A DNA stretch of 64,000 nucleotides from Bacteroidota bacterium (GTDB lineage: Bacteria; Bacteroidota; Bacteroidia; Bacteroidales; F082), in assembly GCA_024279935.1 (NCBI GenBank), contig JAJRQZ010000103.1:1-64000 (forward strand), read 5' to 3'. Shown one piece after another: positions 36,758 to 58,323 of the stretch. Position 1 is the stretch's first letter. The number at the start of each line of letters is the position of its first letter. The notes beneath the pieces were generated by a model. That model had not been told where the DNA came from. It saw nothing but the letters and a program-made list of their open reading frames with translations, and did no database searches. The position numbers and the translations under genes are program-made.

Positions 36758-37564
36758 TTATTTGGTTTTTTCAGCAGTGAACAAGGTTTCTTTCGGGAAC
36801 AGCTTTAACCTTTCGACTTTCGCAGGGTCAAAATCCTCCTGTTTTATCAATTTTACCATAAAGCCTACCGATTCCAGAAGCTTAGGATAGTCTTTCCCAT
36901 ACAGCCTGACATGATCGAACTGCCCATAATTATCTTCTCTTTCCTTGACCGTGCTCAAATCAGCTCTCTCAAATGTTAAGTCAGTATTATTTGAATAAGG
37001 GATCTGCAATATGGCGATACCACCTTTTCTCAATGTCCTGTGTATCTCGCTAAGCGCCAGCTTATCGTTGGGGATATGTTCCAAAACATGATTGGCAATG
37101 ATTATATCAAATTCGGAATCGGAATAATGCACGTCCGTTAAGTCCACCAAAGTCATTTCGGCAGGATAGTATATTCCTTCATGGTATTTGGCGGCAGGTA
37201 TATAATCAGCATTTTCATAGGACGATAAAAACCTATATAAGCCGGGCTCCGGGGCAATATGAAGTATTTTTATCCTATCATCGAGCAAGTCGGGGCGACT
37301 ATCGAAAAACAATTTCACGAACCTGTCGCGGTCGGTGCTCTGGCAATTGGGGCAGATATGATTTCTTGTCCCGGCCCCTATGATTTCCTTTTCCCCGATA
37401 ATAGGCAAATTAAAACCTCCCGGCAGCATTTTCCTGAATTTCCTGTTGCAAATATTGCAATCATAAGAATTACCGGCATAATAAATACCCCTTAAACACA
37501 GAAATGTTTTTTTCAGACCTCTGGCATAAGAATTCGGCAAGTTCTTTTTTAAATCGGAAATCAT
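36758..37564 (-). CDS. SAM-dependent methyltransferase with zinc-ribbon-like N-terminus
   Basis: 268 residues. The N-terminal part has CNICNRKF and HICPNCQSTDRDR, four cysteines in two CxxC pairs likely to bind zinc. A class I methyltransferase fold follows: ILHIAPEPGLYRFL, then SEFDIIIANHVLEHIPNDKLALSEIHRTLRKGG. It is in the polysaccharide run, six bases after the beta-helix protein gene, and may methylate a sugar or lipid-linked intermediate. The acceptor is unknown. Confidence 0.85.
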   Translation of the reverse strand: MISDLKKNLPNSYARGLKKTFLCLRGIYYAGNSYDCNICNRKFRKMLPGGFNLPIIGEKEIIGAGTRNHICPNCQSTDRDRFVKLFFDSRPDLLDDRIKILHIAPEPGLYRFLSSYENADYIPAAKYHEGIYYPAEMTLVDLTDVHYSDSEFDIIIANHVLEHIPNDKLALSEIHRTLRKGGIAILQIPYSNNTDLTFERADLSTVKEREDNYGQFDHVRLYGKDYPKLLESVGFMVKLIKQEDFDPAKVERLKLFPKETLFTAEKTK

Positions 37565-37570
37565 AGATTA

Positions 37571-39208
37571 TTATTGAGTTATCAGCTTGCGGTTTACTGA
37601 ATAAGTTCCGGCATTAACCGTTAAGATACATAATTGGGGAGGCAAGCTATTTAAATCAATTTCTATCTTATTATTTATGCCGCCCCGGCAGTACGAATCA
37701 AATTTCAATAATTGCTTACCGTCAATTGACCGAATCGTTAAAGTACAAACCCCGTTGTTTAAAGGCTTGATGTTGATATAAGTAAGATTTTCGGCAGGGT
37801 TCGGAAAGGCCTGGCCGATAAAAGCGGTCTCTTTCCCGGTTTCGCCGATTGCGTCAGGCCCCTGATATTCGTATGCGCCAACATCGTAAAAAGTATTATA
37901 GGGGCGGTCATGGTTCAGTAAATCGAATGTTACGCCTTCGCTACTGAGATTTTTCCCGAAGTCGATGGCGATAGAGCCATTTTTGAGGCTATAATCGTCG
38001 GACGAGGGATTTGCAAACCCGATGTCCGAAACCGAGGGCGAAAAAATATTATTGCTCAGGGTTAAATTTGCCGAAGAGGTGAGGTTGTTGACATAAGCTG
38101 ATTCCCCCTCGTCAACTTTACCCGGGTCCGCTATTATATTATTGATTATGATGCCTTGATTGGCAACGGCGTTATTATAGGTGATCCCATAGGACTTAGG
38201 GCTGACGATAGTATTATTGTAAAGCTTGAAGTCGAGATTGGCGAGCGTTACAACATCGCCGACATAAATGCCGTGCTTGGCAGAGTTTGGATTGCCAGGC
38301 TCAAACGTTCTGCCGGCCCTGACTATCAGATTGTTGTAAACCATAAACCCCCCAAGGCCGAGAATGTCGATACCATCGCCCTTGCCGTCGTAGATTTCAT
38401 TGTTATAGCAATTGCAGCGGGAGCCGCCACCGATTAATATCCCCGACATCTGATAAAGCGTTTCCTTGTCCGAGTCGTAGCGGATAATATTATTATAGAT
38501 ACTGCAGTCCTCGTCGGATGACGATACCTGTATGCCGTCCCAACCACAATGCTCCAGAATGTTGTTGTATATCTTTACGTCTTTGATCAGGTGCGGGAAA
38601 ATAGTAGTGTCGCAGGCATCCAAATAAACACCTTGTTCATATTTCGAATGACCGATATACATGCCCTCGTCGCCGATGTCGTGAAAATAACAATCGTGGA
38701 TATGCAGCGAATACATGGTGAAATTGTCGCGGCTGGAGGCAAAAGTACAATCGGGGTCGGTCTTGGCATAAAGCCCGGCAATGAGGGTATTGCTAATCTC
38801 AACATTTGAGACTTCGACATTGGTGCTGAGCTCGTCAATCGACATGCCCGAACCATTGGCAACCCTTTTAATTTTAAATCCGTAGTCGATGCCCTCATAA
38901 CCATTGCCAAGAAATTTTATAAATGAACAATTCGCGATCTTGATACCGTAAAAGTGGTCGGTATCGAATAAGACCTGTCCATTGCTGTTGATAAAAGTTA
39001 TGGGCTGGTCCTCGGTGCCGTGCACGTTCTTGACAAGCAAATAATCCTTTTGCGACGCTTCGATACATACTGTGCTTCCGGCCGCTATGCTTGTCGTTTC
39101 GCCATCAACAATAAACTCATTGGCTGCTATTGTCATGTCGCAATCTTGCGCCGATAAGCTAAAGGTTAGTAAAGAGCAGAATAAGACAATATATATTAGT
39201 TTTATCAT
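37571..39208 (-). CDS. T9SS-exported right-handed beta-helix protein
   Basis: 545 residues from the ATG at 39208, whose ATGA overlaps the stop codon of the glycosyltransferase before it; the frame is open eight codons further but that would extend into that gene. Signal peptide MIKLIYIVLFCSLLTFSLSAQ. The centre has many PbH1-type repeats (VYNNLIVRAGR, IYNNILEHCGWDGIQVSSSDED, CYNNEIYDGKGDGIDI), as in polysaccharide lyases and C5-epimerases. The C-terminus is a T9SS type A sorting domain (FPNPAENLTYINI ... LPPQLCILTVNAGTYSVNRKLITQ). An exported enzyme or binding protein acting on the polysaccharide made by this locus is likely; the catalytic residues are not identified. Confidence 0.87.
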   Translation of the reverse strand: MIKLIYIVLFCSLLTFSLSAQDCDMTIAANEFIVDGETTSIAAGSTVCIEASQKDYLLVKNVHGTEDQPITFINSNGQVLFDTDHFYGIKIANCSFIKFLGNGYEGIDYGFKIKRVANGSGMSIDELSTNVEVSNVEISNTLIAGLYAKTDPDCTFASSRDNFTMYSLHIHDCYFHDIGDEGMYIGHSKYEQGVYLDACDTTIFPHLIKDVKIYNNILEHCGWDGIQVSSSDEDCSIYNNIIRYDSDKETLYQMSGILIGGGSRCNCYNNEIYDGKGDGIDILGLGGFMVYNNLIVRAGRTFEPGNPNSAKHGIYVGDVVTLANLDFKLYNNTIVSPKSYGITYNNAVANQGIIINNIIADPGKVDEGESAYVNNLTSSANLTLSNNIFSPSVSDIGFANPSSDDYSLKNGSIAIDFGKNLSSEGVTFDLLNHDRPYNTFYDVGAYEYQGPDAIGETGKETAFIGQAFPNPAENLTYINIKPLNNGVCTLTIRSIDGKQLLKFDSYCRGGINNKIEIDLNSLPPQLCILTVNAGTYSVNRKLITQ

Positions 39209-40398
39209 GACCCTCGTTTTGCCCTTTCCCAATTTACGGATTGCTGCCCTTTTAAAAACCGTTGAAACCCGAGGTAAACGGCATAGTTCATAACGAAAAA
39301 GTAATAGGGGACGAACAATACCTTTATGCTGATCTTTTTGTTTTCAAGAAACCAGCCCAACATTGCGAAAACGTAGAACAATACCTGAGCATAGAAAAGC
39401 AAGGTGTAAATATTGGAAAAAGTAGTTATTCCGGCATTTAAGGCCAGAAAAAAATTAAAGATAAAAATAAAAGGCAATGCAAGAGGGGCCAGCGTCCAGC
39501 GCAAAACCCTGTGTGATATATATTGAAAACTGAGGGTCTTGTATTTAAAGATGTTCAGTAAGGGGCTCAGTCGGATTATCGACTGAATGCCCCCGGCCGC
39601 AATCCTTATTTTACGTTTCAGCTCTTCCTGTACGTTGGCCGAGGAACTTTCTATCGCATAAGCTTCCGGATCGTATTGAATGGTATAACCCTCCATGGCC
39701 ACGCGCAAGGAGATTATGAAGTCGTCGAGAAGGGTGTCTTTTTCAACTTCGCGGAATAATTCGGTCCTAATCGCGAAAAGCTCACCCGCCGCGCCCACGA
39801 CGGAATACAGCTCGGCATCCCATTTTTTCAGCTTGGATTCATATTTCCAATATATCCCCTCACTGCCGACTGCAGAGTCGGAGTCCTTTTTGAAGATCCG
39901 CTTTTCGCCTGATACACAGCCCACTTTAGGATCCTTAAACATATTTACTATCCGTTGGACCGATTCTTCGCCGAGCATGGTGTTCCCGTCGGAGAAAATC
40001 ACTATTGGCGACTTGACAAACTTCATGCCCCTGTTCATGGCGCCAATTTTTCCTCCCCTGGCGTCTTCATGATAAACTTCAACGCCCCGGTCTGCATATT
40101 TCTTCAAAATGTCGGGAGTCCCGTCGTCAGAGCCATCGGTAACCCACACTTGTCTTACTTTATCCTTGTTATATTTAAGGCTGAATGAGTTCTCGACCTT
40201 GGCATCAACATAATCTTTTTCGTTATATGCCGCAACAAACAAAGTTACCTCGGGTTCGTAGTCTTCAATAATGTTCTTCTGCGAATTACCGAATATCCTC
40301 TTCATCTTGACCAGGAAGAACAATAGAATTCCATAACCCAGATAAGCGTAGAAGACGATGAAAAGCAAAAGCCAGAATATAAATGCCAATGTGTTCAT
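39205..40398 (-). CDS. Membrane family 2 glycosyltransferase
   Basis: 397 residues. One N-terminal helix (about 5-28) and about three C-terminal helices flank a GT-A domain: VTLFVAAYNEKDYVDAKV, VIFSDGNTMLG (DXD-like), DDFIISLRVAMEGY. It probably elongates the lipid-linked repeat unit at the inner face of the membrane. Twelve bases downstream of the acetyltransferase gene. Confidence 0.9.
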   Translation of the reverse strand: MNTLAFIFWLLLFIVFYAYLGYGILLFFLVKMKRIFGNSQKNIIEDYEPEVTLFVAAYNEKDYVDAKVENSFSLKYNKDKVRQVWVTDGSDDGTPDILKKYADRGVEVYHEDARGGKIGAMNRGMKFVKSPIVIFSDGNTMLGEESVQRIVNMFKDPKVGCVSGEKRIFKKDSDSAVGSEGIYWKYESKLKKWDAELYSVVGAAGELFAIRTELFREVEKDTLLDDFIISLRVAMEGYTIQYDPEAYAIESSSANVQEELKRKIRIAAGGIQSIIRLSPLLNIFKYKTLSFQYISHRVLRWTLAPLALPFIFIFNFFLALNAGITTFSNIYTLLFYAQVLFYVFAMLGWFLENKKISIKVLFVPYYFFVMNYAVYLGFQRFLKGQQSVNWERAKRGS

Positions 40399-40410
40399 AA
40401 GACCGAAAGA

Positions 40411-41049
40411 TTATTTTTTAACTTTATTTTGACTGATAACACGTTCCCACTTGCCCGATCCCTTGTTATATTGCTTGAGCAGCTTGGCAGGGTTGCCTCC
40501 AACAATCGAATAAGGAGGCACATCTTTGGTTACAACGCTCCCTCCGGCCACGACTGAGTGCTTTCCGACCGTTACTCCTGCGGTGATAACTGCATTTGCG
40601 CCAATCCACACTTCGTCTTCTATGGTTATCAGGCTTGTTCTTACATGTTGGTCGGCAATAGGGACATTAATATCCTCGTAAACATGGTTAAGCCCTGAAC
40701 AGACAATGTTTTGCGCGAACATGATATCGTTCCCGATCTTTATCGGGCCGATTATCACATTGCTCATCCCTAGCCTTGTCCGGTCACCTATCTCTACATG
40801 CCCCACGCCGTTGTTTATCGTGGAGAAGTCCTCTATAGTGGAATAACTTCCCAGCTTAAAGTCGTTATATGGAAAGACATCCATTCTGACCCGACGTCGG
40901 ATTACGGAGTTTTTCCCTCTTTTGTTCAATATAGGGTTAACGAACATTCTAACCCATAATCGCGGACGTGCCTGGTTACGGGGCATTAACATCCAAAGCG
41001 CAAAGTTCTTGAGTTTTTCGTTCGATTTTATTTTACCAGCTATACCCAT
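40411..41049 (-). CDS. Hexapeptide-repeat acetyltransferase
   Basis: 212 residues. Left-handed beta-helix repeats are clear: IGDRTRLGMSNVIIGPIKIGNDIMF, then ITIEDEVWIGANAVITAGVTVGKHSVVAGGSVVTKDVPPYSIVGGNPAKLL. This is the WcaF/NodL/maa family pattern, which O-acetylates sugars with acetyl-CoA. It is in a tight run with flanking glycosyltransferases (one base and 12 bases apart), so it likely decorates the polysaccharide repeat. Confidence 0.9.
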   Translation of the reverse strand: MGIAGKIKSNEKLKNFALWMLMPRNQARPRLWVRMFVNPILNKRGKNSVIRRRVRMDVFPYNDFKLGSYSTIEDFSTINNGVGHVEIGDRTRLGMSNVIIGPIKIGNDIMFAQNIVCSGLNHVYEDINVPIADQHVRTSLITIEDEVWIGANAVITAGVTVGKHSVVAGGSVVTKDVPPYSIVGGNPAKLLKQYNKGSGKWERVISQNKVKK

Positions 41050-41050
41050 A

Positions 41051-42256
41051 TTATTTATTATTTTCGTTTTCCACTAACTTGATATATTTGAATATTTCTT
41101 TCGCATTGGCCTCCCAGGTATGGCCGCGGGCCAGTTTCTCGCGTTTCACTTCCAGTTCGGCAGAGTTCTCGTCTAGCGCTTTTTGCACCAGTTCAAGATA
41201 GCCCTCCTTGTTTTCGGCAAGGTAGGTGTAGTCGGCAAAAACCGACATGCCTTCGGTCTTGGTGGCTACGGTGGGCTTGCCCATTGCCAGGTATTCGTCG
41301 ATCTTACGCGGGTAATTCCCTATCGTAACCTCATTTAACAGTTGCGGATTCAGGGCAACGTCGAAAGAATTAAGGTAGGCAGGCAATTCCTCCATTTTTT
41401 TGCTTCCAAGAAAATGTACGTTCTCTAAATCGTGAAGCTCACTGGACGCAAAAGCGTCATCCTCGGGCCCAACAAGTACTATGCTCCAGTCGGGGCGGTT
41501 TTTTGCCAGATGGACCAAAACCTCTATATCAAGGCGCAGGTTGAAAAGCACGCCAATATATCCAATTATCGGGCCCTTGATGTCCTTTATGTCGTGCGGG
41601 GCTTCATCAATGAGCTTTTTGTCGAACAAGCTCACATCGCATCCCTGGCCTACATAATAGGAGTGGGGGTTGAATTGCCGTGCCTTGTCGGCCAGATAAG
41701 TCGAGTTTGCCACAACAACATCCGCTTTTGCCATCAGCTTGGCCTCGTTGCGGATTCCCTGCGCCTTCCAAAAATCAACGGCAACCATATTGTCGCGCGT
41801 ATAATAACATAATGTTCTGGCCTTTATCATTTCTTTAAGATAAAAACTACGGAACATATCGGTATCGTTGAATATTATAATATCCTTAAAACCAAGTGAT
41901 TCGATTGCCTTATTGACTTCCCCGGCCTGGCGTTTGTTATTTGTCTTGTTTAAAACGTCGAAAAGCCAATCCACTTTCAGCTGGCTGATGGATTCAAGCA
42001 CCGTATTGGGATAAAGGTTCCAGAAATTATCGGCCACTTCAACCAGTTTCGGCTTTTTACCTTTCATTATCTCCCGTCGCTTGATAACCAATGGGTCTTT
42101 CCTTTCGCGCCAAAGCGTGAACCTGTCGAGGGGATAATTCACATAGAGCACCCTGTTGTGTTTGGCGAATTCGTAAGAAAGATTTATGACATTGCTTCCG
42201 ATACGGCTGTCCATGGCCGCTAAACCCACAACTACTATATCCCTGCCTTTGATCAT
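41051..42256 (-). CDS. GT-B glycosyltransferase (family 1 type)
   Basis: 401 residues. N-terminal MIKGRDIVVVGLAAMDSRIGS resembles the TuaH-like group. The nucleotide-sugar-binding half has IIGYIGVLFNLRLDIEVLVHLAK, VLVGPEDD, VHFLGSKKMEELPAYLNSFDVALNP and the EYLAMGKPTVATKTEGM acceptor-side motif. Soluble, probably acting on cytosolic lipid-linked intermediates of the same locus. Confidence 0.9.
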   Translation of the reverse strand: MIKGRDIVVVGLAAMDSRIGSNVINLSYEFAKHNRVLYVNYPLDRFTLWRERKDPLVIKRREIMKGKKPKLVEVADNFWNLYPNTVLESISQLKVDWLFDVLNKTNNKRQAGEVNKAIESLGFKDIIIFNDTDMFRSFYLKEMIKARTLCYYTRDNMVAVDFWKAQGIRNEAKLMAKADVVVANSTYLADKARQFNPHSYYVGQGCDVSLFDKKLIDEAPHDIKDIKGPIIGYIGVLFNLRLDIEVLVHLAKNRPDWSIVLVGPEDDAFASSELHDLENVHFLGSKKMEELPAYLNSFDVALNPQLLNEVTIGNYPRKIDEYLAMGKPTVATKTEGMSVFADYTYLAENKEGYLELVQKALDENSAELEVKREKLARGHTWEANAKEIFKYIKLVENENNK

Positions 42257-42261
42257 AATAA

Positions 42262-43416
42262 TTATTTTTTGTTATTGTTATAAACAGTTTTATAAAGTTC
42301 CAATACTTCCAGGGCCATATTCTTCCAGGAGAATTTTGCGGCTTGTTTTAGTCCTGTCCCTATCAGTTGCCCGCGAAGTTCCTCATCGTCCCCGATTTTG
42401 ATCATTGCATCTGTAATTTCCTCCGGCTTATATGGATCTATGATAAAAGCAGCGCCGCCGCTAACCTCAGGCATTGATGAAGTGTTTGAAGTAATTACCG
42501 GCGACCCGCAGCCCATGGCTTCCAGCATCGGTATCCCAAAGCTCTCGCGCAGCGAAGGGTAGAGGAATATCTCGCATTGCTGATAAATTGAAGGTAAGTC
42601 GGTATTGATCACATAACCCGTCAGGATGATTCGCTTTATTAAACCCGGATCGCCTATGCTGCTTAGTATTTTGGCAAGTTCTTGTTGCTCGTAATCGAGC
42701 ATGACCAGGTAAACGTCCTCGCCTGTTTTTTTCAAATAATCGCTAAAGGCCTTCAAGGTGTTCGGGGTGTTTTTCTTGGGGTCGGTATTTCCGAGGAAGA
42801 AAAAATACCTGTCGGGAAGTTTATACTTTTCTTTAACACGTTTAAGCTCATCCTTGTCGGTAACAGGCTTAAAGTGCTCGCTAACACCATTATACACCGC
42901 AACCAGCCTGTCGTCGGATTCGGGGAAGCCGAAAAAATCCTTAATTCGGTTTCGCTCAAACTTGGAAACAGTGATAATCTTGTCGCTTTTCTTAACCACG
43001 GCAGGTACTACATATCGGCGGTACATATTCCCGAACTTCTGATACCAGGTGCCACCCTTTTTGAAGATGCTGATGCCTTCGAGGTAAATTATATCGTGAA
43101 GTGTAACGACCAAAGGCATGCCAGGGTTTACGGGCGCCGTATTACTGGTGCAATGCAGTATTTCACAGCCCTCTTTTTTGGCTGCTCTGGGCAGTGCGAG
43201 CTGTTCCCATATTGGGTAAGGGCCTCCGGGCAGTTCAACTATCTTAAAGTTTTTTGTGTTCTTTAAGGTATCCTTGTCAACGTCAGGTTTCACAAATACA
43301 ACATATTCGTTATCGTGGTCCAGTTTCTGTAATTCGTTTATCAGTTCCAAAGCAACCATGTCCATACCATGTTTCTTGGTACGGAAAAGCCTTTGTCCTT
43401 CAATTGCGATTTTCAT
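42262..43416 (-). CDS. Family 4 glycosyltransferase
   Basis: 384 residues. GT4 features: VTLHDIIYLEG, KIITVSKFERNRIKDFFG, YFFFLGNTDPKKN, and the retaining EX7E motif region YPSLRESFGIPMLEAMGCGSPVI. Upstream lies the 199-base gap with the long inverted repeat, so it may head its own transcript for the distal half of the locus. Confidence 0.92.
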   Translation of the reverse strand: MKIAIEGQRLFRTKKHGMDMVALELINELQKLDHDNEYVVFVKPDVDKDTLKNTKNFKIVELPGGPYPIWEQLALPRAAKKEGCEILHCTSNTAPVNPGMPLVVTLHDIIYLEGISIFKKGGTWYQKFGNMYRRYVVPAVVKKSDKIITVSKFERNRIKDFFGFPESDDRLVAVYNGVSEHFKPVTDKDELKRVKEKYKLPDRYFFFLGNTDPKKNTPNTLKAFSDYLKKTGEDVYLVMLDYEQQELAKILSSIGDPGLIKRIILTGYVINTDLPSIYQQCEIFLYPSLRESFGIPMLEAMGCGSPVITSNTSSMPEVSGGAAFIIDPYKPEEITDAMIKIGDDEELRGQLIGTGLKQAAKFSWKNMALEVLELYKTVYNNNKK

Positions 43417-43462
43417 CTGTTTATAATTTTGTAATTAATTGTCATCTAGCATATTATATTTA

Positions 43463-43540: not shown

Positions 43541-43615
43541 CTGTATTTTTGCAGAATAATCATTTTCCTGTTTGATCTAAATTAAACATGGATGTTTCAT
43601 TTTGTCAGTGTTTAT

Positions 43616-44377
43616 TTATATTATCTCCATCACGAATAAGTAATCCCTGTTCAGGTAAAAATTCGATGGTTCATATTCCGAGCGTTTAATGATCCTATAT
43701 CCGGCTTTTTCGGCAAGGATGTCAATTGTTTGGGGGTTTACGAAATAAAATCCCCCCGGCCAATATCTGTCCTGCACTTTAAATCTGTCCCAACCGCCCT
43801 GAGTGCTTAGGTTTGCCGTATGAAGAAAAACCTTTCCGTCATCTTTGAGCACTTTCTTTATTTCTTTGAAATAAGCCCAAATATTATGCAGGTCGAGATG
43901 GACGAACACATCGAAACTATAGACCATGTCAAAGCTTTTCTCTAATTTGTCATCGAACCTTGAGCTTGTGAGGTGGACATATTCGATGTTTTTATGTTCT
44001 TGCAGCGAAAGCGCAGCCTTTTTGAGCATTTCCTTTGCGACATCGAAGCCATAGAGTTTTTTTACTTTAGGAGCCACTATATCAGCAATCCTGCCGCCTC
44101 CGATACCAATTTCGCCAACGGTGCTGTCCTTGTCCACGTATCTGAGGAGATAGTCGTCGATCAATGTGTTGGCGTCCTGAAGATTACCCCATTCGTTGCC
44201 GATGAACTTGAGGTAGTCCTTGCGTTTAGCAGGATCGATCTCAACGTTCTCGACGTCTATTGTTTCGTGGTCCCAGTGCTTCGCATAGTCGTCCCAAATT
44301 TTAACATTGTATTCGACATTGTCGTTAGGGGTTACGTTTAAGATGTCTTTTATTTTTGCTTTTATTTTCGAGATCAT
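43616..44377 (-). CDS. Class I SAM-dependent methyltransferase
   Basis: 253 residues from the ATG at 44377; a TTG 16 codons upstream is open but unlikely. Motif I is STVGEIGIGGGRIADIV, followed by KKLYGFDVAKEML, SFDMVYSFDVFVHLDLHNIWAYFKEIKKVLKDDGKVFLH. Acts in the cytoplasm, probably methylating a sugar of the repeat unit or a chain end. Downstream (on the minus strand) lies the long inverted repeat. Confidence 0.88.
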   Translation of the reverse strand: MISKIKAKIKDILNVTPNDNVEYNVKIWDDYAKHWDHETIDVENVEIDPAKRKDYLKFIGNEWGNLQDANTLIDDYLLRYVDKDSTVGEIGIGGGRIADIVAPKVKKLYGFDVAKEMLKKAALSLQEHKNIEYVHLTSSRFDDKLEKSFDMVYSFDVFVHLDLHNIWAYFKEIKKVLKDDGKVFLHTANLSTQGGWDRFKVQDRYWPGGFYFVNPQTIDILAEKAGYRIIKRSEYEPSNFYLNRDYLFVMEII

Positions 44378-44446
44378 TGAATTTATTTTAAAAAGTTCAC
44401 TAATATACGAATTTTGAGGGCTCAATATCCAATTATTGAATTAAAA

Positions 44447-46767: not shown

Positions 46768-46778
46768 AGTCAAATATT

Positions 46779-49884: not shown

Positions 49885-49896
49885 AATATATATAAT

Positions 49897-51390
49897 TTAT
49901 GTTTTTGTAAATACTGATGTTGGTGTTATGCCCTTGCTTTTTAAATAGTCCCACTCCCTATCGAACTGCTGGGACATGAAAACAAATGCCCAGCTCAGAT
50001 ATATCAGCGGCCCGGTTGGGATTTGGCCCAGTACACCATTACCGTAACTGGCGCCGACTATGCCTGCAAACCCGGCATGGACCGCTCCTAGAATACCTGC
50101 CAGCTCAGGGTTTCTTACCTTGAACAGTATTAGGTAAAAGCCTTTTATCATTATGTACGACAGTATAAATACATGGATAAACAGCCCGACGATCCCAGTT
50201 TCGGCCCATATTTGAACATACCAGCTATCGGTTGCTATTTGAGCAAGGTAGCCTTGTGGCGAAAAACGCTGGCCCCAGTTGCCCGCGCTGCCTACGCCCC
50301 CTCCAAAAGGCTTGTTCGACAAATATTCTTTTAATATGGCCCTGTTTTCCAAACGGACCTGATAAGACGCATCCTCCGTGGGCCTGAAGGCGGTACGCAT
50401 CCTGGCAATTTGATAGTTGCTGTCGCCAATATATGTATGGGCAAAGAAAACATATACAACAGCCATAAGGAATCCTCCGATTATGATGACCCTTAAATTT
50501 TTCCTCAAAATAATATATACTACTCCTCCTATCATGGGCACTATCATTGCACCCCTGGTTCCTGATAGAAACATTCCCCAAAGTCCCAGAAACCCCATTG
50601 TTAGAAAGAAGATCCTATTTCTCATCCCTTTTATGGTTGACGCCACCAACAGGCCAACTACGCCTGCAGCGGCCTGTGCCGCGCCAAATTGCCCGGCGTC
50701 GGAAAAGAATGAGAAGATGCGTAATTTGCCGAGTATTATGTGCGTTACCGCCCCAACGGTGTCAAGCCAGTATTGTTCGGCGGAATCCAAGCCTATGTAT
50801 TCTTGTTTTAAGCCAACCAAGGTTGCGAGTATGGTAAACACCCCCCATAAATACAGGAAGCCCATCATATACCTTATTCTGTTAAAGGTAAACAGGGCAA
50901 TAGGAATTAATAGCATCGAATATAGCGCGACACCCCTCATGGCATAAAACCATGCGGTGCGGCTAAGAGCCTGTGGGTTGCCCAACTGCATTAAGATATA
51001 TAAAAACCAAAAAAACAAAAGATATACTATGTCCCTGTTAATTTGCTGGAAATCAATTCGTACATGGAAATATTTAAAGAAAAACCCAAGAATTGTCACT
51101 ACCATAAACCCATCGATACTAAGCCCCAGGGGCACTCCTTGAATATAACGGGTGAGGCCGATGGCTAAAAAAGCAAATATCAATAAGGTATATATTCCTA
51201 TCGGCGGATTGTTGAACACCCTGTTCAGGAAGAATAAAACAGGCAACATCGCCACAAGCATTACAGCGGTCTTAACACCTCCCTTTGCCATTAATACACC
51301 GGCAATTACGGCAATCATCACCAATATGGCAATAACCAAAGGATGTTCAAGTTTTCGCGCACCGCGCTTTTGCTTTAATGATTCCAACAT
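49897..51390 (-). CDS. O-antigen ligase/polymerase-type membrane protein (Wzy-like)
   Basis: 497 residues with about 11 membrane helices. The Wzy_C-type loop is recognisable: AFRPTEDASYQVRLENRAIL, KPFGGGVGSAGN, ATDSWYVQIWAETGIVGLFIHV. In the locus it is the likely polymerase that joins repeat units at the periplasmic face. A ligase role cannot be excluded, but no other polymerase is present. Confidence 0.88.
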   Translation of the reverse strand: MLESLKQKRGARKLEHPLVIAILVMIAVIAGVLMAKGGVKTAVMLVAMLPVLFFLNRVFNNPPIGIYTLLIFAFLAIGLTRYIQGVPLGLSIDGFMVVTILGFFFKYFHVRIDFQQINRDIVYLLFFWFLYILMQLGNPQALSRTAWFYAMRGVALYSMLLIPIALFTFNRIRYMMGFLYLWGVFTILATLVGLKQEYIGLDSAEQYWLDTVGAVTHIILGKLRIFSFFSDAGQFGAAQAAAGVVGLLVASTIKGMRNRIFFLTMGFLGLWGMFLSGTRGAMIVPMIGGVVYIILRKNLRVIIIGGFLMAVVYVFFAHTYIGDSNYQIARMRTAFRPTEDASYQVRLENRAILKEYLSNKPFGGGVGSAGNWGQRFSPQGYLAQIATDSWYVQIWAETGIVGLFIHVFILSYIMIKGFYLILFKVRNPELAGILGAVHAGFAGIVGASYGNGVLGQIPTGPLIYLSWAFVFMSQQFDREWDYLKSKGITPTSVFTKT

Positions 51391-51432: not shown

Positions 51433-52866
51433 TTATTTTTTTAATAACGACTTCCTGATAAAAACACTGAAAAATGAAATACCGCCTGAAAATATATTCC
51501 TGAACCGTAAATCCAATTCTTTATATAAGTAACTGAAACCCACAAATATACCTATTACTGAAAACAGTAATGTGACCACAGCCACTAATTCAAGAATGGT
51601 CAGTTTGGTAAAACCCGACAGTACGCTTATAAAGGTGTCGATACTTTCGACCTGGGTGAACAAAAGCGTAAAACCGGTAATGAACAATACAAAATAATAT
51701 ATTCCGAACACCATTATCCCATCACCTATAATATTGGCTAGTGTCATATAAACTACCTTGATAAAATTTTGCTTGGGCATATTTACGCTGTCCAGGGCAA
51801 CTCCCGTAAGCCTATCGATGGGAAGCAAAAGACCATAGAAGCAAAAGATCCTGAAAATAGTCGCTGTTTGCGCATAATTGCTTCCTCCCAATACGGTAAC
51901 AAACTCCTCGGCGAAAATAAAACAGAATAGCATCACGGGCATGAGCATATAAAGAAGTCCTCCGGCATTTTGATAATACAATCGCTTTACCTCTTTTTTG
52001 TTTCCTTCGATACTTGCCTTCGACATGCCGGGGAAGGCAGTCATGGCATAACTTCTCACGGGAATCTCTATTATCTCGGTAAGCTTTAGCGGTATGCTGT
52101 ATAAAGCGACTGCCGTGGTTCCCAAAAACGGGCTCAAGCCGATGATAAAAGTATCTGCGCTTTTAAGCAAGTTGCTCCCTATCAAGGTGCCGGTCGTATA
52201 TTTCCCGAAATCCAATATCACCTTTATCTTAGCCTTGTTGGCATGAAATATATAACGGATCCCGTCCCAGTTGAACAGCATCGTCAACAATGACGTGAGC
52301 AAGGTTGTAGAAAGGTAAACTATCATTATTTCCAATAACCCATAATTCAGGAAGAAATAGTTGACAACCAAAAACAACATAAATATCCCTACGTTGACTA
52401 TTCTGACCAAGAGGATAAGGTCGAAGCGCAAACGAGCCTGCAATACCGATAGTGAGTTGTTGAAAGGCAGGCTTAAGACGGCATAAATAGGAAACCATTG
52501 GAAAAACAGCGAGAAACCCGAACTGGAAACCGTGTCGCGGAAATAATGATCTATCAGTAAAGTAATTACGATTAGGGAAATTGATGAAATAATATTTATA
52601 GTGTAGTTGGAGCCTATAAGCTGCCTGGCCTCATTTTTTCTTGCCCCCGACAAAAACCTGACCATTGCTGTTCTGGTAATGCCGAACCTGAGCATGTCGA
52701 GAAAGTTTGCCGTTGTCAGGAACAAGACCCATTTGCCGAAATCATCGGTCGGGAGGCTGCGCACCAATACCATAAAACTGAAAAAAGCCAAAACGGCGAC
52801 CAATCCATTATTTGCTAAAGAAAGGAAGTTGTTGTTCTTTAGTATTTTAGTTAACAGATTCCCCAA
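51433..52866 (-). CDS. Polysaccharide flippase (Wzx-like)
   Basis: 477 residues, about 12-14 membrane helices, MATE/MOP-type flippase: NNGLVAVLAFFSFMVLVRSL..FGKWVLFLTTANFLDMLRFGI at the N-terminus is the classic polysaccharide-export start. The start is TTG; a good AAGGAGG lies eight bases upstream, inside the end of the previous gene, and the next Met (33) would cut the first helix. It should flip the lipid-linked repeat unit across the inner membrane. Confidence 0.9.
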   Translation of the reverse strand: MGNLLTKILKNNNFLSLANNGLVAVLAFFSFMVLVRSLPTDDFGKWVLFLTTANFLDMLRFGITRTAMVRFLSGARKNEARQLIGSNYTINIISSISLIVITLLIDHYFRDTVSSSGFSLFFQWFPIYAVLSLPFNNSLSVLQARLRFDLILLVRIVNVGIFMLFLVVNYFFLNYGLLEIMIVYLSTTLLTSLLTMLFNWDGIRYIFHANKAKIKVILDFGKYTTGTLIGSNLLKSADTFIIGLSPFLGTTAVALYSIPLKLTEIIEIPVRSYAMTAFPGMSKASIEGNKKEVKRLYYQNAGGLLYMLMPVMLFCFIFAEEFVTVLGGSNYAQTATIFRIFCFYGLLLPIDRLTGVALDSVNMPKQNFIKVVYMTLANIIGDGIMVFGIYYFVLFITGFTLLFTQVESIDTFISVLSGFTKLTILELVAVVTLLFSVIGIFVGFSYLYKELDLRFRNIFSGGISFFSVFIRKSLLKK

Positions 52867-52869
52867 TGG

Positions 52870-55806
52870 TTATTCCTCCTTTCTGATGTTAATCTTGTAT
52901 TTTAAAGGATAGGAGAGTACATTTTTAATCTTTTTTATCAATGCTTGTCTCTTACTCTTAGGTAAGGATGTCAGTAATTCCTCAAGGTTATAAAGCTCAA
53001 CTTCGTTGAGGATTACCATAGGTTCGATTTTCATGGAAGCCTTAAATATATCAAGAGCGTTTTTATCGGCTTTTTGCAAGCTGCTGTTTGCTGATACCAC
53101 CAATAAAACGCTATCAGCCAAATTGATTAGCTTTATTGGGTAATTATTGTAAACTATTGAAGGGAGCTCGATAAATATATAGTCATATCCATAGTTTTCC
53201 TTCCTGATGTTTCTTGCGTTCAGCAAATCGGGAATCGAATCCAGATCTATAAAATCGTTAGCTATTTTATAGGTGAACGAATAATTATAATCTTCGTCAA
53301 TCTCGTTTAGGTCATCTTTGCTGTAATTGGCGTATAGGATAGTGTTGCCCATGTCCCGCATGCGGTTGACAATTTTCTGCCCTAATAAGGTCTTGCCCAT
53401 TTTGTCCTGGGTGGAAACCATTAGGACAATCTTCGGTTTTTTGTCATCGTCATCCGATTGTGCAAGTTTGAACTTGATGTTTTGGATGATCATATCCACC
53501 AACCTTCCGGTAATGCGGGCCAATTCCCTGGCCTGGGCTGCCGAGCCGATTCGCGGGTAAGCACCGGCAAGTTCCAGTTTGGTCTCGTATTTCACCCTGT
53601 TCGGGCTCTTTACCGAGGAGTCGAAGTATTCCAGGATGAGAATTACGAACGCCACCAAAATAAGGCCGAACATAAATGCTGCCGCAATAAGTATTTTTGT
53701 TTTTGACGCTTTTGGCGAAATAGGGAAGAAAGCTGGGTCAACAACTTTTATGTTCGTTGACATGTCAAGTCGCTGCTGCTTCATCTTCGCGGCGTTCAGG
53801 CTTCGCAAAAGCTCGAGATAAGATTGTTCGGCAACCTTTATCTCGCGCTCTATTCGTTTAAGCATAGCACCCAGCGGCGCAAACTTTTGGTATGTCCTTA
53901 CAAAATCCATCTTGCGCCTTGCCAAAACAATAAGTGCTGCTTTTGCTTCTTCGTAGCTGAGCGTGTTCGTCAACCAGCTATCCAGCAATGTTTTTATAGG
54001 CATTCCCTGGGTTGAATGGCTATATAGGAAAAGTTGGTCCACGTACAGCTTTATATGGTCCTGTAAGTCTTTTTGCCTCAGGCGAAGCATGTTTAGCTTG
54101 TTCTTCGTCCTTTCGTCATAGCTTTCCGATAACTCGTTCAGCACTATTGCCTCGGTAATATCCGAAAGCTCTTTCTTCATTTGGTTGATCTCGTCGCTTT
54201 TCAGGTAAATGCTGTCCCTGGCTGTTAAATTAGTTTCAAGTTCCCTAAGCGACGAGGCCGACGACGCCATCCTGACCTGTTCGTTTTGATAATATAAATC
54301 GAGGTCTTCTTTTTGGGATGCTATATATTTACTCTGCTCATAGTAGTTGATAATATTGTTTTTCATATTGAACTTCAACAAGCGGTCTTCTGCTTCCTGG
54401 AGTTTTTTATCTGCCAGGGCAACCTGTTCCTCAAAATATTTTATAACAAGGTTTGTCTCGTTTTCGCGAAGCATCTTATAGTTCTTCATAAAAACCTTTG
54501 ATAATATCTTAAGTGTCTGTTGGCATATTCCTGGATCATCGGCAGAATAGATAATTTTTACCATATCACTGTTCTTCTCTCTAAAAACCTGAAGCTGAGA
54601 TATTTTAGCAATGCTATAATGAGGATGCTGGCCATAATGCAATAATCCGTAAATGAAGTTGCTGTCGTTGGCGCCGTAGAATGCCATCAAGTTATTAAAA
54701 GTTTTCTGGAAGTCCTCCGGATTGATTCCTGACGGGGTGATGGGGTCTTTTTTTGTCTTGTTGTCGCTACCAAATGTAGTGCTTATCTTAGTTGTGATAC
54801 CGTCATAGCTTTGGCTGCCGTGTGATACGGGATTCGATTGAACGACAATTCCGGGCGAGACCTGTTTTACGGCATAATCATAAGTAGTGCCTTGGTTTGA
54901 CAAAGTATTATAACCTTGTTCGATTATTATTTTTTGTCCTGGACTTAATGCCCTGTTGTTCAAGTTATTGATTTCGCGGAGCTTGCTGATGTTCATACCG
55001 TAGCGCTTAGCAATCGAATAGAGGGTCTCACCTCGTTTTACGGTGTGGTATTTAGAAGTAATGCCGGAGGGAGCGTTTTTTTTGATGATGATTGATTGTC
55101 CTCCGGATAGATCTTCGCTTGTCAGGTTGTTAATTTCCATCAGCTGCCCTCTTGATACTCCGTATCTGCTGGCGATTTCCGACAATGATTCACCTTGCTG
55201 CACCTCATGGAAAATATAGTTATCGTTATTGACCGCTGCCTGATCCTTGCCAACTCCGGCAGAAGGCCTTAATGCGGGGTCAACATATCCTTCTTGGCGT
55301 ATTTTGTTTTGGGCGGCTTTATTTTTCTTTTTTGTGATTTCTCTTTCAAGCGAGGTGATTTCTTTTTCGAGATTCTTGATCTGTTCTTCTTTCTCGCGCT
55401 CTATTCCCGATTTATTATATTTCACAACCAGGTCCTTAACCCTTTTTGGTATAAACTCCTGCAGTTTCTTATAATGTTCTTCCGAAATATACTGATTGTT
55501 GTAGCTTTCGAGGGAAAGATCCTGTGCCAATAGCCAAAGTGAGGTTGAAACAATGGTTTGGCGCGAGCTTAACATGGCAATGATATTGTCGAACTGGGCA
55601 CTGGTTGTAAAAAAGTTCGTGCTTTGCTGTGTATTGGATTCAATGGAATAACCTGTTGTGATACCTGTATAAATCAACACTTCCGATTCATATTCCAAAG
55701 TTTGGTTTCTGGTAAGGAAATAAACCACAAAGGCCAAAATTAGCGGAATGGCTGTTAGTATTACCAAGTTACGTTTGAAAAGCTTTAAAAACTGACCAAT
55801 ATCCAT
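52870..55806 (-). CDS. Wzz-type chain-length protein with two LysM domains and degenerate BY-kinase
   Basis: 978 residues. Membrane helix 1 (about 13-32) begins a Wzz-like periplasmic domain, and helix 2 lies at about 699-723 (ILIAAAFMFGLILVAFVILI). Between them, residues 200-243 (HEVQQGESLSEIASRYGV) and 253-297 (YHTVKRGETLYSIAKRYGM) are two LysM domains, and a long coiled-coil region (about 450-690) follows. The C-terminal cytoplasmic domain (about 780-940) is P-loop-like but degenerate: STQDKMGKTLLG for Walker A, ILYANYSKDD instead of the ILxxDxDxR A' motif, and YIFIELPS where the Walker B Asp should be. No Tyr cluster ends the protein. Wzz-type proteins set chain length and open a path to the exporter; LysM would anchor it to peptidoglycan. 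Confidence 0.88.
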   Translation of the reverse strand: MDIGQFLKLFKRNLVILTAIPLILAFVVYFLTRNQTLEYESEVLIYTGITTGYSIESNTQQSTNFFTTSAQFDNIIAMLSSRQTIVSTSLWLLAQDLSLESYNNQYISEEHYKKLQEFIPKRVKDLVVKYNKSGIEREKEEQIKNLEKEITSLEREITKKKNKAAQNKIRQEGYVDPALRPSAGVGKDQAAVNNDNYIFHEVQQGESLSEIASRYGVSRGQLMEINNLTSEDLSGGQSIIIKKNAPSGITSKYHTVKRGETLYSIAKRYGMNISKLREINNLNNRALSPGQKIIIEQGYNTLSNQGTTYDYAVKQVSPGIVVQSNPVSHGSQSYDGITTKISTTFGSDNKTKKDPITPSGINPEDFQKTFNNLMAFYGANDSNFIYGLLHYGQHPHYSIAKISQLQVFREKNSDMVKIIYSADDPGICQQTLKILSKVFMKNYKMLRENETNLVIKYFEEQVALADKKLQEAEDRLLKFNMKNNIINYYEQSKYIASQKEDLDLYYQNEQVRMASSASSLRELETNLTARDSIYLKSDEINQMKKELSDITEAIVLNELSESYDERTKNKLNMLRLRQKDLQDHIKLYVDQLFLYSHSTQGMPIKTLLDSWLTNTLSYEEAKAALIVLARRKMDFVRTYQKFAPLGAMLKRIEREIKVAEQSYLELLRSLNAAKMKQQRLDMSTNIKVVDPAFFPISPKASKTKILIAAAFMFGLILVAFVILILEYFDSSVKSPNRVKYETKLELAGAYPRIGSAAQARELARITGRLVDMIIQNIKFKLAQSDDDDKKPKIVLMVSTQDKMGKTLLGQKIVNRMRDMGNTILYANYSKDDLNEIDEDYNYSFTYKIANDFIDLDSIPDLLNARNIRKENYGYDYIFIELPSIVYNNYPIKLINLADSVLLVVSANSSLQKADKNALDIFKASMKIEPMVILNEVELYNLEELLTSLPKSKRQALIKKIKNVLSYPLKYKINIRKEE

Positions 55807-55813
55807 GTTAAAA

Positions 55814-56611
55814 TTATCTAATTATAGTTATTAAGTTAAAGTGCATACCTGTAATAACCTCGAGAGCATCGTAATTTTTCTGAAATTCGGTAATAACTTT
55901 AATATAGTCGATGGCACCCCTGGTCTGAATCTCTTTGAGCCTTGCGTATTCAGCAGTTGTTATCTCGCCGTTCAAGAATTCGTTTTGGGCCATTTGCATC
56001 TGTGCCAATGTAAAACTCTGATAATCATTATATATCTTAATCTGGCTCTGAAAGTTGACCAGGTCGTTATAAATGTTGATGACCCTGTCGGCCAAGAACC
56101 TCCTGTTGATTTCTTTTTGTGTTAAGGATAACTCTATCCATTTTTTTTGTTTGTTGATCCTGTTTCTTCTATCGATGAGGGTGACCAGTGGCATGCGGAT
56201 ATAAAACCCCACTGCGTAATTTCCTCTCCACGATTGCGAGTTATAGAATTTGTTGGGGTTGTTCGGGTCGCTGATCTGAAGTTCCTGCCAGTCCCAATAA
56301 TCCCATTTCCCGAAGTTCAGGTCAACGCTCCAACGAAGCATATCGAGCCATTCCCGCGCTGCCGAAAGTTGTTCGTACCTGTAATAGTCTGCTTTTAGGT
56401 CTTCATAAAGCATATCGGGAGAATTGAATGCAGCCGAGTCGATAAGCACGCTCAAAGCAGGTAGCCTTTCGGTTATGTCATCAGTTAACGGGTTGAACTC
56501 CTGCTTTTTATCGTTATTGGAGATCTGTGCGGACACATTTAGGCTAATAATTGTGAGCAATAGGAACAACCACAAATTATTAAATATATTTCCCAATGTA
56601 GATTTTATCAT
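55814..56611 (-). CDS. Half-length TolC-type outer membrane protein
   Basis: 265 residues with a signal peptide ending in LNVSAQ. The sequence fits one OEP repeat of the TolC family: LPALSVLIDSAAFNSPD at the start, beta-strand pair (WSVDLNFGKWDYWDW ... YAVGFYIRMPLVTLIDRRNR), then two long helices (LTQKEINRRFLADRVINIYNDL; AQNEFLNGEITTAEYARLKEIQ). Full TolC proteins have two such repeats, about 420-480 residues. It lies just upstream of the Wzz-LysM protein (seven bases), where a Wza-type exporter would be expected. Confidence 0.78.
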   Translation of the reverse strand: MIKSTLGNIFNNLWLFLLLTIISLNVSAQISNNDKKQEFNPLTDDITERLPALSVLIDSAAFNSPDMLYEDLKADYYRYEQLSAAREWLDMLRWSVDLNFGKWDYWDWQELQISDPNNPNKFYNSQSWRGNYAVGFYIRMPLVTLIDRRNRINKQKKWIELSLTQKEINRRFLADRVINIYNDLVNFQSQIKIYNDYQSFTLAQMQMAQNEFLNGEITTAEYARLKEIQTRGAIDYIKVITEFQKNYDALEVITGMHFNLITIIR

Positions 56612-56717
56612 TTTTTTGGTCTCTCGATTCTAGAAATTTTGTCCAAACTACTAATATATGGCATACATTAAATTGTAGTTTTCATTTATTTATTAATAAT
56701 TTCTCAACATGCAACCG

Positions 56718-57938
56718 TCAGACATTATCCTTCTGCAACAAAGCCGGAATCGTCCTTAAGATAAGCTTTATGTCCCCCCAAAAAGAATAATTGTTAGCAT
56801 ACTGATTATCAAGCATCTTACGCTCCTCTTCGCTCATAACCCCTTTTTTCCCCCTCAATTCCACCTGCCATAAGCCAGTTATCCCGGCGGGTCCCATAAA
56901 CCGCAGGCTCCAATCGTCGGATGTTAATAACTCTGCCTCGTACAAAGGCAGGGGGCGGTTGCCCACGATAGACATATCTCCCTTAAGAACATTAAATAGC
57001 TGTGGTAGTTCGTCGATACTGGTGTTCCTGATAAAATTACCAACTTTGGTAATCCTGGGGTCATTGGATATCTTTATAAACGTGGTATCGGTTAGCTCCT
57101 TTTTTTGTTTTATATACCAGTTTTCACATATTTTGTGGCCTTTGATATAGAGTATGGGGGAGCAATGCTTGCCTTCGGGAAGCTTTGCGCATTCAGGGCA
57201 GTTGAGATCCAGCTCGTAATCCTTCTCGGCTTTTTTTTCTTTTTCCCCCTTCTTGCCGCCGGCATATTGGTTCAAATGTTTTAATTCGGCAAGCTTGGCG
57301 TCGGCGCCGGTGTACATTGACCTGAATTTCAGGAAATCGAATATTTTATATCCCGTGCCGACCCTTTTGCTCCTATAAACTATCGGGCCTTTCGACTCAA
57401 GCCGTATGGCAAGGGAAACTATAAGGAGTATGGGCGAGATCAAGAGAAGAACGCTGGCAGATACCAGTATGTCGAAACCTCTTTTCACCAATGGTATTTT
57501 ATACTCGTATTTTTTCTTCTTTTTGACTTTTTGGTCAAGTATTTCGGAATAGTACTTTTGAAGCGACCTGATCCTGCTATAAATATCTATCGGTTTTACC
57601 GGGTAAAAGTAAAGATCGTCGATTATGCCCTTTGCCGCAAAGGATTTTTTTAATAAATCATTGTCTTTTTCAAATGCGAGCATAATAATCGGCGTTTTCA
57701 AAAGTTTTTTGTTGCCTCTTAAAATCCCTGCATACTCGATACCGTTCATTCCGTGCATGAACGCCTCGCAAACGATAGCGTCTATGTCCTCGTCCGATTT
57801 AATATAGCTATTGGCCTTTAGTCCATTGTCGAACTGTGTAAGCGCAAATAGCTCAGTGCTCGCCCTTAACTCCGCAATAAAGCTTTCGTTGCTTCCAACA
57901 TAAAGAACTTGCAATGGTGAGCGGGTGGGATTTTCCAT
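56718..57938 (-). CDS. Phosphoglycosyl transferase with N-terminal pseudo-receiver
   Basis: 406 residues from the ATG at 57938 (a TTG two codons upstream is possible). Residues 10-130 form a receiver-like fold that has lost the phosphorylation site: the acidic pair is GS in VLYVGSNES, the acceptor Asp is E58 in AIVCEAFMHGMNG, and the switch Thr is Ala in IIMLAF, while the Lys is kept in PVKPID. The rest is the WcaJ/WbaP type sugar transferase: RGFDILVSASVLLLISPILL, YRSKRVGTGYKIFDFLKFRSM (M208), NDPRITKVGNFIRNTSIDELPQ, NVLKGDMSIVGNRPLPLYE. Between M208 and N292 is an insert with C247, C250, H258, C259, H268 and C271, perhaps a metal site. It should transfer a sugar phosphate to undecaprenyl phosphate, starting synthesis. 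Confidence 0.9.
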   Translation of the reverse strand: MENPTRSPLQVLYVGSNESFIAELRASTELFALTQFDNGLKANSYIKSDEDIDAIVCEAFMHGMNGIEYAGILRGNKKLLKTPIIMLAFEKDNDLLKKSFAAKGIIDDLYFYPVKPIDIYSRIRSLQKYYSEILDQKVKKKKKYEYKIPLVKRGFDILVSASVLLLISPILLIVSLAIRLESKGPIVYRSKRVGTGYKIFDFLKFRSMYTGADAKLAELKHLNQYAGGKKGEKEKKAEKDYELDLNCPECAKLPEGKHCSPILYIKGHKICENWYIKQKKELTDTTFIKISNDPRITKVGNFIRNTSIDELPQLFNVLKGDMSIVGNRPLPLYEAELLTSDDWSLRFMGPAGITGLWQVELRGKKGVMSEEERKMLDNQYANNYSFWGDIKLILRTIPALLQKDNV

Positions 57939-57957
57939 AATCAAAAAATTTCGGAAA

Positions 57958-58323
57958 CTAGATCAAAAGATTTTCGATCCTAATTGCCAATTCTTCAGGG
58001 TTAAAGGGTTTGACAATGTAATCGTTTGCACCCAGCTTTAAACATTTAACCCTTTCAACACTGCTTTCAATGCCCGAAAGCATTATTATGGGTATATGTT
58101 TGAAGAAACCGCTCTCTTTTATTTTTTGCAGTAATTCGTAGCCGTCCATGTTCGGCATTTGTATGTCAGCAACAATAAGGTCGGGCATATTACCTTCCTC
58201 CAGCGATTTCAATGCTTCGATACCGTCGTTGGAAGTGGTGACGTTATAGCTTTTGCCCAAAAAATTCTCGAGTAACATTCTGATACTTAATTCATCGTCT
58301 ATAATGAGTATTGTTTTCTTCAT
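57958..58323 (-). CDS. Single-domain response regulator (CheY-like)
   Basis: 121 residues, one receiver: acidic pair D9 D10, phosphoacceptor D53 in LIVADIQMPNMDG, and ANDYIVKPFNPEEL. No output domain. It is the first gene of the polysaccharide operon, 19 bases before the pseudo-receiver phosphoglycosyl transferase, and may control the machinery by protein-protein contact. Confidence 0.94.
   Translation of the reverse strand: MKKTILIIDDELSIRMLLENFLGKSYNVTTSNDGIEALKSLEEGNMPDLIVADIQMPNMDGYELLQKIKESGFFKHIPIIMLSGIESSVERVKCLKLGANDYIVKPFNPEELAIRIENLLI

Follow-up and report, generated by a model that had tools for sequence, protein, structure and literature searches.

A conserved Bacteroidia polysaccharide locus with a CheY-like regulator, a pseudo-receiver phosphoglycosyl transferase and a half-length TolC-like protein as candidate exporter

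How a polysaccharide might be started and brought out of the cell by a locus with a CheY-like regulator at its front and a half-length TolC-like protein where an OPX exporter gene is expected is the question raised by a run of genes on contig JAJRQZ010000103.1 of the Bacteroidota bacterium assembly GCA_024279935.1. The window, the whole stretch of 64,000 nucleotides analysed here, comes from a draft genome of 3.73 Mb and carries the locus as one run of 20 genes, all on the minus strand from 58323 to 34725, with domains assigned by Pfam and NCBIfam (see table). An initiating phosphoglycosyl transferase (PGT), a Wzx-type flippase, a Wzy-type polymerase, a polysaccharide co-polymerase (PCP) and seven glycosyltransferases lie together in it, which makes it a Wzx/Wzy-dependent polysaccharide locus. 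The parts listed in an earlier sequence-only reading of this DNA, namely a CheY-like regulator, a PGT with an inbuilt pseudo-receiver, a half TolC, a Wzz protein with LysM domains and a dead kinase domain, a beta-helix protein and a histidine-less kinase, were all found. The reading that we favour, and consider moderately probable, is that of a conserved exopolysaccharide locus of Bacteroidia in which a CheY-like protein switches the PGT and the polymer is exported through a channel of half TolC proteins.

The gene unit is widely kept. A protein search with the receiver-PGT fusion (RPGT) covered 41 genomes, the window's own included, and gave matches spanning the receiver in 18; the stretches around such matches in the other genomes form 17 family-level loci (L034-L050). 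The order CHEY-RPGT-OEPh-WZZL, that is CheY-like regulator, RPGT, half-length TolC-like protein and LysM-bearing Wzz, is found in all 17, including L050, whose OEP is too distant for BLAST and was matched by profile (E 7e-74), and in each of them CHEY lies directly upstream of RPGT, in agreement with the regulator-first arrangement proposed for the window. A second set of 13 loci with the fusion, which overlaps the 17 in at least four contigs, shows the same order with CHEY directly upstream. At the other end, of downstream stretches from 15 genomes, 14 carry BHEL-MT1-HYBk-REC2 in this order, and these genes are missing only in G026. As gene order is kept over about 20 kb in many genomes, chance is excluded; a locus without relatives was considered and rejected because the gene set recurs across family and phylum loci, and these counts also contradict the lack of co-occurrence that the sequence-only reading had named as its refutation. 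Upstream of CHEY the genera have different genes, which by names read from the sequences include UvrB, a transporter and a glutamate synthase-like protein, while CHEY stays; the unit therefore begins with CHEY. A large part of the glycosyltransferase set is also kept across the family loci, which suggests that the locus makes one conserved polymer rather than a variable capsule. A block of five reversed reading frames interrupts the locus after GT2e in L057.

Full-length RPGT occurs in 51 of 119 family genomes, and the window's nearest relatives in named records are uncultured Bacteroidales and Marinilabiliales and related Bacteroidetes metagenome-assembled genomes, with one labelled Chlorobiota. 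The half-OEP profile matches at least 17 of 395 phylum-sampled genomes, the window's included, a lower bound because at most six candidates per genome were scored, and the half OEP with its Wzz is also present in genomes of 97-100% completeness elsewhere in the class and phylum. In the neighbourhood counts, which leave aside L051-L053 (loci of a second PGT) and L065 (contig edge, no RPGT), WZZL stands directly after OEP in 14 of 16 distant loci, with OEP placed by profile rather than BLAST in L112 and L113; both genes are present and rearranged in L116, and L104 has no WZZL. CHEY and RPGT do not adjoin in L105, the stretches of L108, L111 and L117 hold no RPGT, and L110, L112, L113 and L118 have a CHEY-like gene at their visible front and a PGT without a receiver. 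These last four clusters run from the CHEY-like gene through a protein of about 675 aa to the receiver-less PGT and, one gene later, the half OEP and Wzz; the CHEY-like gene is degenerate in L110 and L113, and the protein of about 675 aa carries DFND motifs in L110, L112 and L118.

The first two genes of the unit both encode receiver domains. CHEY in the window has an intact active site (D9, D10, D53, S83, K105), and among 27 aligned rows, which include near-identical relatives, the phospho-Asp, Ser and Lys are kept in all and the acidic pair in 26, the exception (L038) being cut at a contig edge and gapped at that pair. The receiver of RPGT is degenerate: its Pfam receiver match reaches 25.6 bits against a cut-off of 30.2, the acidic pair is present in none of the 27 rows, Glu replaces the phospho-Asp in 25 rows and two keep Asp, and the Lys is lost throughout, so that by acidic pair, phospho-Asp and Lys it does not qualify as a phosphorylatable receiver. 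The predicted fold is nevertheless confident in the AlphaFold model (residues 11-130, block pLDDT 79-91) and matches solved receivers. The PGT half of the model is poor, with pLDDT mostly below 50, and no statement on fold is based on it. By domain content RPGT consists of the receiver and a Bac_transf catalytic domain only and is not a large monotopic PGT (monoPGT) with a transmembrane bundle and a domain of unknown function (DUF). Its catalytic domain carries a four-cysteine insert (C249, C252, C261, C273) that may be a metal or redox site; this CPxC...C...C insert at about 249-273 is nearly invariant in the family, is common to the second PGT described below, is present also in L024, L030 and L118 and is absent in L110.

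The only invariant residues of the pseudo-receiver are D110 and R124, 14 apart, and CHEY has D101 and R115 at the same spacing, each in 27 of 27 rows; we take these pairs to correspond to the Asp-Arg salt bridge of the PhoB/OmpR α4-β5-α5 dimer. Arg stands at the equivalent position in none of 15 REC2 sequences and in three of 15 hybrid kinases, and seven of eight distant PGT receivers have the D..R pair, five of these with a one-residue insertion between (the L105 receiver is cut at its start and thus gapped at the acidic pair). Of the 91 receiver segments in the fetched loci, with the CHEY family counted in, 23 have a D..R pair at this spacing, and four of 12 distant CHEY rows lack the Arg, so that pairing of CHEY with the PGT receiver through the D..R face is put forward only as a hypothesis, with some support. 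A competing explanation, which we regard as unlikely, is that CHEY does not touch the PGT and belongs to a phosphorelay with the terminal kinase and REC2 that controls another process such as transcription or motility, the pseudo-receiver serving only to dimerise the PGT. Receiver-receiver pairing by the same face can indeed be homotypic, CHEY shares its unit with the kinase and REC2, and is also found in the distant clusters L110, L112, L113 and L118, whose PGT has no receiver. Against this stand the position of CHEY directly upstream of RPGT in every family-level and seven of the 16 distant loci, its fit with the described EpsW-EpsZ logic and its lack of an output domain.

The third gene, OEPh, would provide the exit. 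It has one OEP repeat (PF02321, 40.1 bits against a cut-off of 22) in 265 aa, which bears out the description of a half-length TolC-like protein; it stands where an OPX gene would be expected, and its N-terminus reads as signal-peptide-like with no lipobox. The open frames of OEP in related loci span 236-296 aa, and a truncated gene was rejected since the length is kept in all relatives read; ten other frames in the genome match OEP, nine of them with two repeats. The AlphaFold model of OEPh (mean pLDDT 76.3) is one TolC repeat, with a helix at 65-91, strands at 92-106 and 124-138 and helices at 142-213 and 219-254, and a Foldseek search with it gave 12 matches at E <= 0.001, all TolC/OprM-type channels, the best being TolC, VceC, CmeC and OprM (E 5e-5 to 1e-3). 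VIA-align gave Z of 7.6-9.5; as unrelated helical proteins and adaptor hairpins are listed as well, Z is not used as proof. In a sequence search of the PDB the half-OEP profile matched nothing at E <= 0.01. OEPh thus has the repeat fold of TolC without the two repeats per chain of the trimeric channels, and with one repeat per chain six chains would be needed for a channel.

No OPX gene (PF02563) lies in the locus, and none was found in the cluster stretches of the 18 and 16 genomes, contig ends shortening some of these stretches. The closest one, in G384, shares a contig with the half OEP at a distance of about 19 kb, and all 16 distant genomes have OPX genes elsewhere. The sole match in the window's genome is on contig C163, where a 265-aa OPX gene pairs with an 825-aa BY-kinase with Walker motifs and a GYGYGY tail. 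The sequence-only statement that no Wza-type exporter and no separate Wzc were seen is therefore right for the locus and not for the genome, and absence of Wza/Wzc from the genome is rejected. As read, this compact OPX and Wzc pair (C163:19828-23109, L032), with its very long Gly-Tyr repeat tail, is followed by an oxidoreductase and a NusG-like gene; few polysaccharide genes surround it, and the contig ends 3.8 kb further on.

This pair opens the most direct alternative, that of an ordinary polysaccharide locus whose polymer leaves through the C163 Wza/Wzc, with the half OEP as an accessory or an efflux remnant. In its favour are this canonical pair with, as read, few polysaccharide genes of its own around it and the presence of an OPX gene in 15 of the 18 locus-bearing genomes, the window's own included. 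The occurrence of OPX does not, however, go with that of the locus, as 20 of 23 locus-free genomes have it too, and the half OEP adjoins WZZL in all 17 family-level loci. Three locus-bearing genomes have no detectable OPX gene, among them G016, which keeps the locus and is 98% complete (G002 is 88% and G037 79% complete). As a draft assembly can hide a gene, this evidence that OPX is not needed for the locus is strong but not final. The sequence-only reading had named a Wza/Wzc pair elsewhere that serves the locus as a second ground for refutation; a pair elsewhere does exist, yet with no OPX gene seen in three of 18 locus-bearing genomes it is unlikely to export this polymer, and we rate the ordinary-locus explanation as improbable.

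WZZL, the presumed partner of the exporter, bears out the earlier description of a Wzz protein with LysM domains and a dead kinase domain: it has two LysM domains (about 200-295), a GNVR domain and degenerate BY-kinase motifs. One or two LysM domains occur in the other aligned family members, and none in L050. In the C-terminal domain of the window protein GK[ST] is kept, the acidic residues of Walker A' are lost, the Walker B Asp is Glu and there is no Tyr tail, so that by Walker A, A' and B and Tyr-rich tail it is no Wzc-type BY-kinase. At Walker B the near relatives have Glu-[LI]-Pro; the exception is L050, with a shortened region and Asp-Leu-Pro. Most distant WZZL share the degenerate pattern of the near relatives, and the domain is degenerate in all rows read. 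In the C163 Wzc, by contrast, the P-loop is intact, FDLRKP and IDTPP are present, and there is a long Gly-Tyr tail. The WZZL domain appears to fit the BY pseudokinase class described for EcpK and HfsB (PMC12004946). Of the proposal that Tyr-phosphorylation control is replaced by receiver control, the degenerate kinase domain stands; the replacement itself is conjecture, and both halves have a precedent in Myxococcus.

The tail of the locus holds BHEL, whose Por_Secre_tail match (PF18962) reaches 21.6 bits, below the Pfam cut-off of 27, with similar C-termini in most orthologues by reading; GldM of a type IX secretion system (T9SS) is present in the genome. The hybrid kinase had been taken for the end of the locus and its missing histidine for a part of the system. 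Asn does stand at its H-box in the window, whereas the gene lies just past the interval 36758-58323 first marked out and is followed by REC2. Of 15 sequences, the window's counted among them, 11 have His, so that a His-less kinase as a design feature is rejected. In 11 of 14 relatives the last kinase is 775-919 aa long with a normal His (of two long kinases scanned, L070 has TPR repeats in front and L075 no named domain there), and Asn is confined to the window and two relatives of its genus (465 aa) and to G006 (502 aa). A tree built from the joined sequences of RPGT, OEPh and WZZL places G006 with L058, apart from the clade that unites the window genus (g1) with His-bearing genera, which makes two separate His losses likely, one in the window genus and one in G006. 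By these sequences the His-less kinase is a late, lineage-specific decay of a normal, longer hybrid kinase. Because CHEY is intact in the genomes with an Asn kinase, another kinase would phosphorylate it there, or CHEY would work unphosphorylated.

Put together, these features suggest the following course for the favoured reading. Phosphorylated CHEY would bind the pseudo-receiver of the PGT, probably by the α4-β5-α5 face, and turn on the first transfer of a sugar phosphate to undecaprenyl phosphate; the terminal hybrid kinase of the locus, in its long form, would be the ancestral kinase for CHEY, decayed in the window genus, and where it has decayed another kinase would feed CHEY or CHEY would act without phosphorylation. 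About seven glycosyltransferases would make the repeat unit, which Wzx would flip and Wzy polymerise. Polymerisation would be organised by the LysM-bearing Wzz, in which a BY pseudokinase replaces an active tyrosine kinase and which would be tied to peptidoglycan; six copies of the half OEP would form a TolC-like barrel of 12 strands with its tunnel in place of Wza, and the beta-helix protein would leave the cell by the type IX system and may act on or hold the polymer outside. The product could instead be a protein- or lipid-joined glycan, in glycosylation or as an O-antigen, with the Wzy-like protein as a ligase: Bacteroidota glycosylate exported proteins, and the Pfam family matched, Wzy_C/O-antigen ligase, covers both polymerases and ligases. 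We find this quite improbable, as the Wzy-like gene is kept together with a Wzz-type co-polymerase and a protein resembling outer-membrane channels, which fits polymerisation and export. More tentatively, and somewhat less probably than not, the locus may represent a Bacteroidia route of Wzx/Wzy export through a single-repeat TolC-like channel of six identical chains, docked on a pseudokinase co-polymerase that is anchored in peptidoglycan, with a CheY/pseudo-receiver start, separate from Wza, OPX/beta-barrel and synthase porins.

Several points weigh against the reading as a whole. The contact of CHEY with the PGT, the polymer and its export are all inferred, and the D..R pair that would mediate the contact is common among receivers and its Arg incomplete in distant CHEY, as given above. 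Outside the family CHEY directly precedes RPGT in only seven of the 16 distant loci (L103, L104, L106, L107, L109, L114, L115). Over the barrel strands of OEPh (residues 91-140) block pLDDT reaches only 53-59, the nine two-repeat frames in the genome leave room for pairing of the half OEP with a full-length TolC homologue, and an OPX gene is at hand in most locus-bearing genomes. Since the Wzz of L050 has no LysM, anchoring to peptidoglycan would not be universal.

The genes of the locus are closely packed. Intergenic gaps are mostly below 45 bases, with larger ones of 106 (PGT/OEP), 199 (MT2/GT4b) and 197 (kinase/REC2) bases and 161 bases upstream of CHEY; a scan for sigma-70 promoters over 57900-58700 found none, against a mean of 2.9 in shuffles, other promoter types being outside the scan.

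Genes of the polysaccharide locus in the window, in order of transcription
Gene and assigned role	Coordinates	Strand	Remarks
CHEY, single-domain response regulator, first gene	57958..58323	-	Response_reg E 5.6e-30; active site intact
RPGT, pseudo-receiver and small monotopic phosphoglycosyl transferase	56718..57944	-	Bac_transf E 8.6e-56
OEPh, half-length TolC-like protein, proposed outer-membrane exit	55814..56611	-	One OEP repeat, 265 aa
WZZL, Wzz/PCP with two LysM and C-terminal BY-pseudokinase domain	52870..55806	-	Two LysM and GNVR
Wzx-type flippase	51433..52866	-	Polysacc_synt_3
Wzy-type polymerase	49897..51390	-	Wzy_C
GT2e, glycosyltransferase	48949..49884	-	
GT2d, glycosyltransferase	47724..48947	-	
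GT2c, glycosyltransferase	46779..47705	-	
GT2b, glycosyltransferase	45568..46773	-	NCBIfam EpsU match under cut-off
MT3, methyltransferase	44447..45568	-	Among RPGT loci compared, window and closest relative G003 only
MT2, methyltransferase	43616..44425	-	Among RPGT loci compared, window and G003 only
GT4b, glycosyltransferase	42262..43416	-	
GT4a, glycosyltransferase	41051..42256	-	
ACT, hexapeptide acyltransferase	40411..41049	-	
GT2a, membrane glycosyltransferase	39205..40398	-	PgaC-like match under cut-off
BHEL, right-handed beta-helix protein with T9SS-type C-terminal tail (under Pfam cut-off)	37571..39232	-	
MT1, S-adenosylmethionine (SAM) methyltransferase	36758..37564	-	
HYBk, shortened hybrid kinase	35354..36751	-	Asn instead of phospho-acceptor His
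REC2, second single-domain receiver, conserved last gene	34725..35156	-	

Most family relatives read have a gene between ACT and GT2a (an FkbM-type methyltransferase in L070, the sole one scanned) that is missing in the window and G003, which carry MT2 and MT3 (43616-45568) instead when compared with L036, L039, L042, L069 and L070; this swap is likely a change of methyl decoration. Three tandem FKBP-like genes at 32200-34742 meet the end of the locus tail to tail, and in most relatives read REC2 is followed by genes of FKBP type.

A second, receiver-less PGT lies apart from the locus at C64:18626-19369 of the same genome (L026, L051), with orthologues in L052, L053 and L129-L140; it is 49-58% identical to the catalytic part of RPGT and sits, by reading, among housekeeping genes with dnaA nearby, and the match in the window's own genome holds an in-frame stop. 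Its occurrence follows that of the locus: of the 119 family genomes 49 have both PGTs, two RPGT only, five the second PGT only and 63 neither (Fisher p 4.6e-25, kinship not corrected for), and several of the single-PGT cases are genomes below 90% complete. Both PGTs are missing together in G001, G010, G014 and G021, whose congeners have both. A usual flanking gene was found in eight of nine locus-free genomes, and in G015 two of the customary neighbours lie side by side without a PGT; as several locus-free stretches end too near the site, absence rests on the RPGT searches of 41 and 119 genomes.

The open-licence literature searched gave, in the titles and opening lines of abstracts among the matches listed, no description of a single-repeat TolC-like Wzx/Wzy exporter, a LysM-bearing Wzz or this gene set, and the accessible parts of PMC12632262 on pseudo-receivers and PMC13082787 on TolC hold nothing on such a system. 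The half TolC as an exporter and the LysM-bearing co-polymerase are without a precedent found, in keeping with the sequence-only remark that the combination is not a described system; that remark does not extend to control of a PGT by a response regulator or to BY pseudokinases, which are known. According to PMC12802240, the single-domain response regulator EpsW, fed by the Dif chemosensory system, activates the PGT EpsZ in the exopolysaccharide pathway of Myxococcus xanthus; its authors propose that an EpsW-type mechanism may extend beyond myxobacteria, and cite receiver-fused small monoPGTs from O'Toole et al. 2021. The locus resembles EpsW/EpsZ in having a stand-alone receiver with an intact phospho-site in the locus of a Wzx/Wzy-initiating PGT, and resembles the fusions of O'Toole et al. 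in joining a receiver to a small PGT. It differs in the small-type PGT with its fused pseudo-receiver and in the hybrid kinase within the locus, whereas EpsZ is a large, dimeric monoPGT with four transmembrane helices and a DUF, a difference to be added to the points weighing against the favoured reading. Receiver control of the first polysaccharide step, a mechanism reported for Myxococcus in 2025, would here have an independent setting by gene fusion.

For the pairs EcpK/EpsV and HfsB/HfsA of BY pseudokinase and PCP-2, a scaffold role is proposed and fused variants are mentioned in PMC12004946. WZZL shares their degenerate Walker motifs and lack of a Tyr tail; its domain is, however, fused to the PCP and keeps GK[ST], whereas EcpK is without any motif and has lost the P-loop, and unlike EcpK and HfsB it has a LysM insertion in the portion that precedes the second membrane segment of the PCP. 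With the OPX and OPX/beta-barrel exporters, including Wza (PMC9601211), the half OEP shares its position and presumed role as the PCP-paired outer-membrane exit, and differs in that the locus has a one-repeat OEP protein instead of a PF02563 protein. With TolC/OEP channels (PF02321) it shares the repeat fold, the two barrel strands and the long coiled helices, but there is one repeat per chain and the genetic partner is a Wzz rather than an efflux pump. The half OEP is thereby a candidate non-OPX outer-membrane exporter for Wzx/Wzy polymers, and it is this exporter that could go beyond a variation on known systems.

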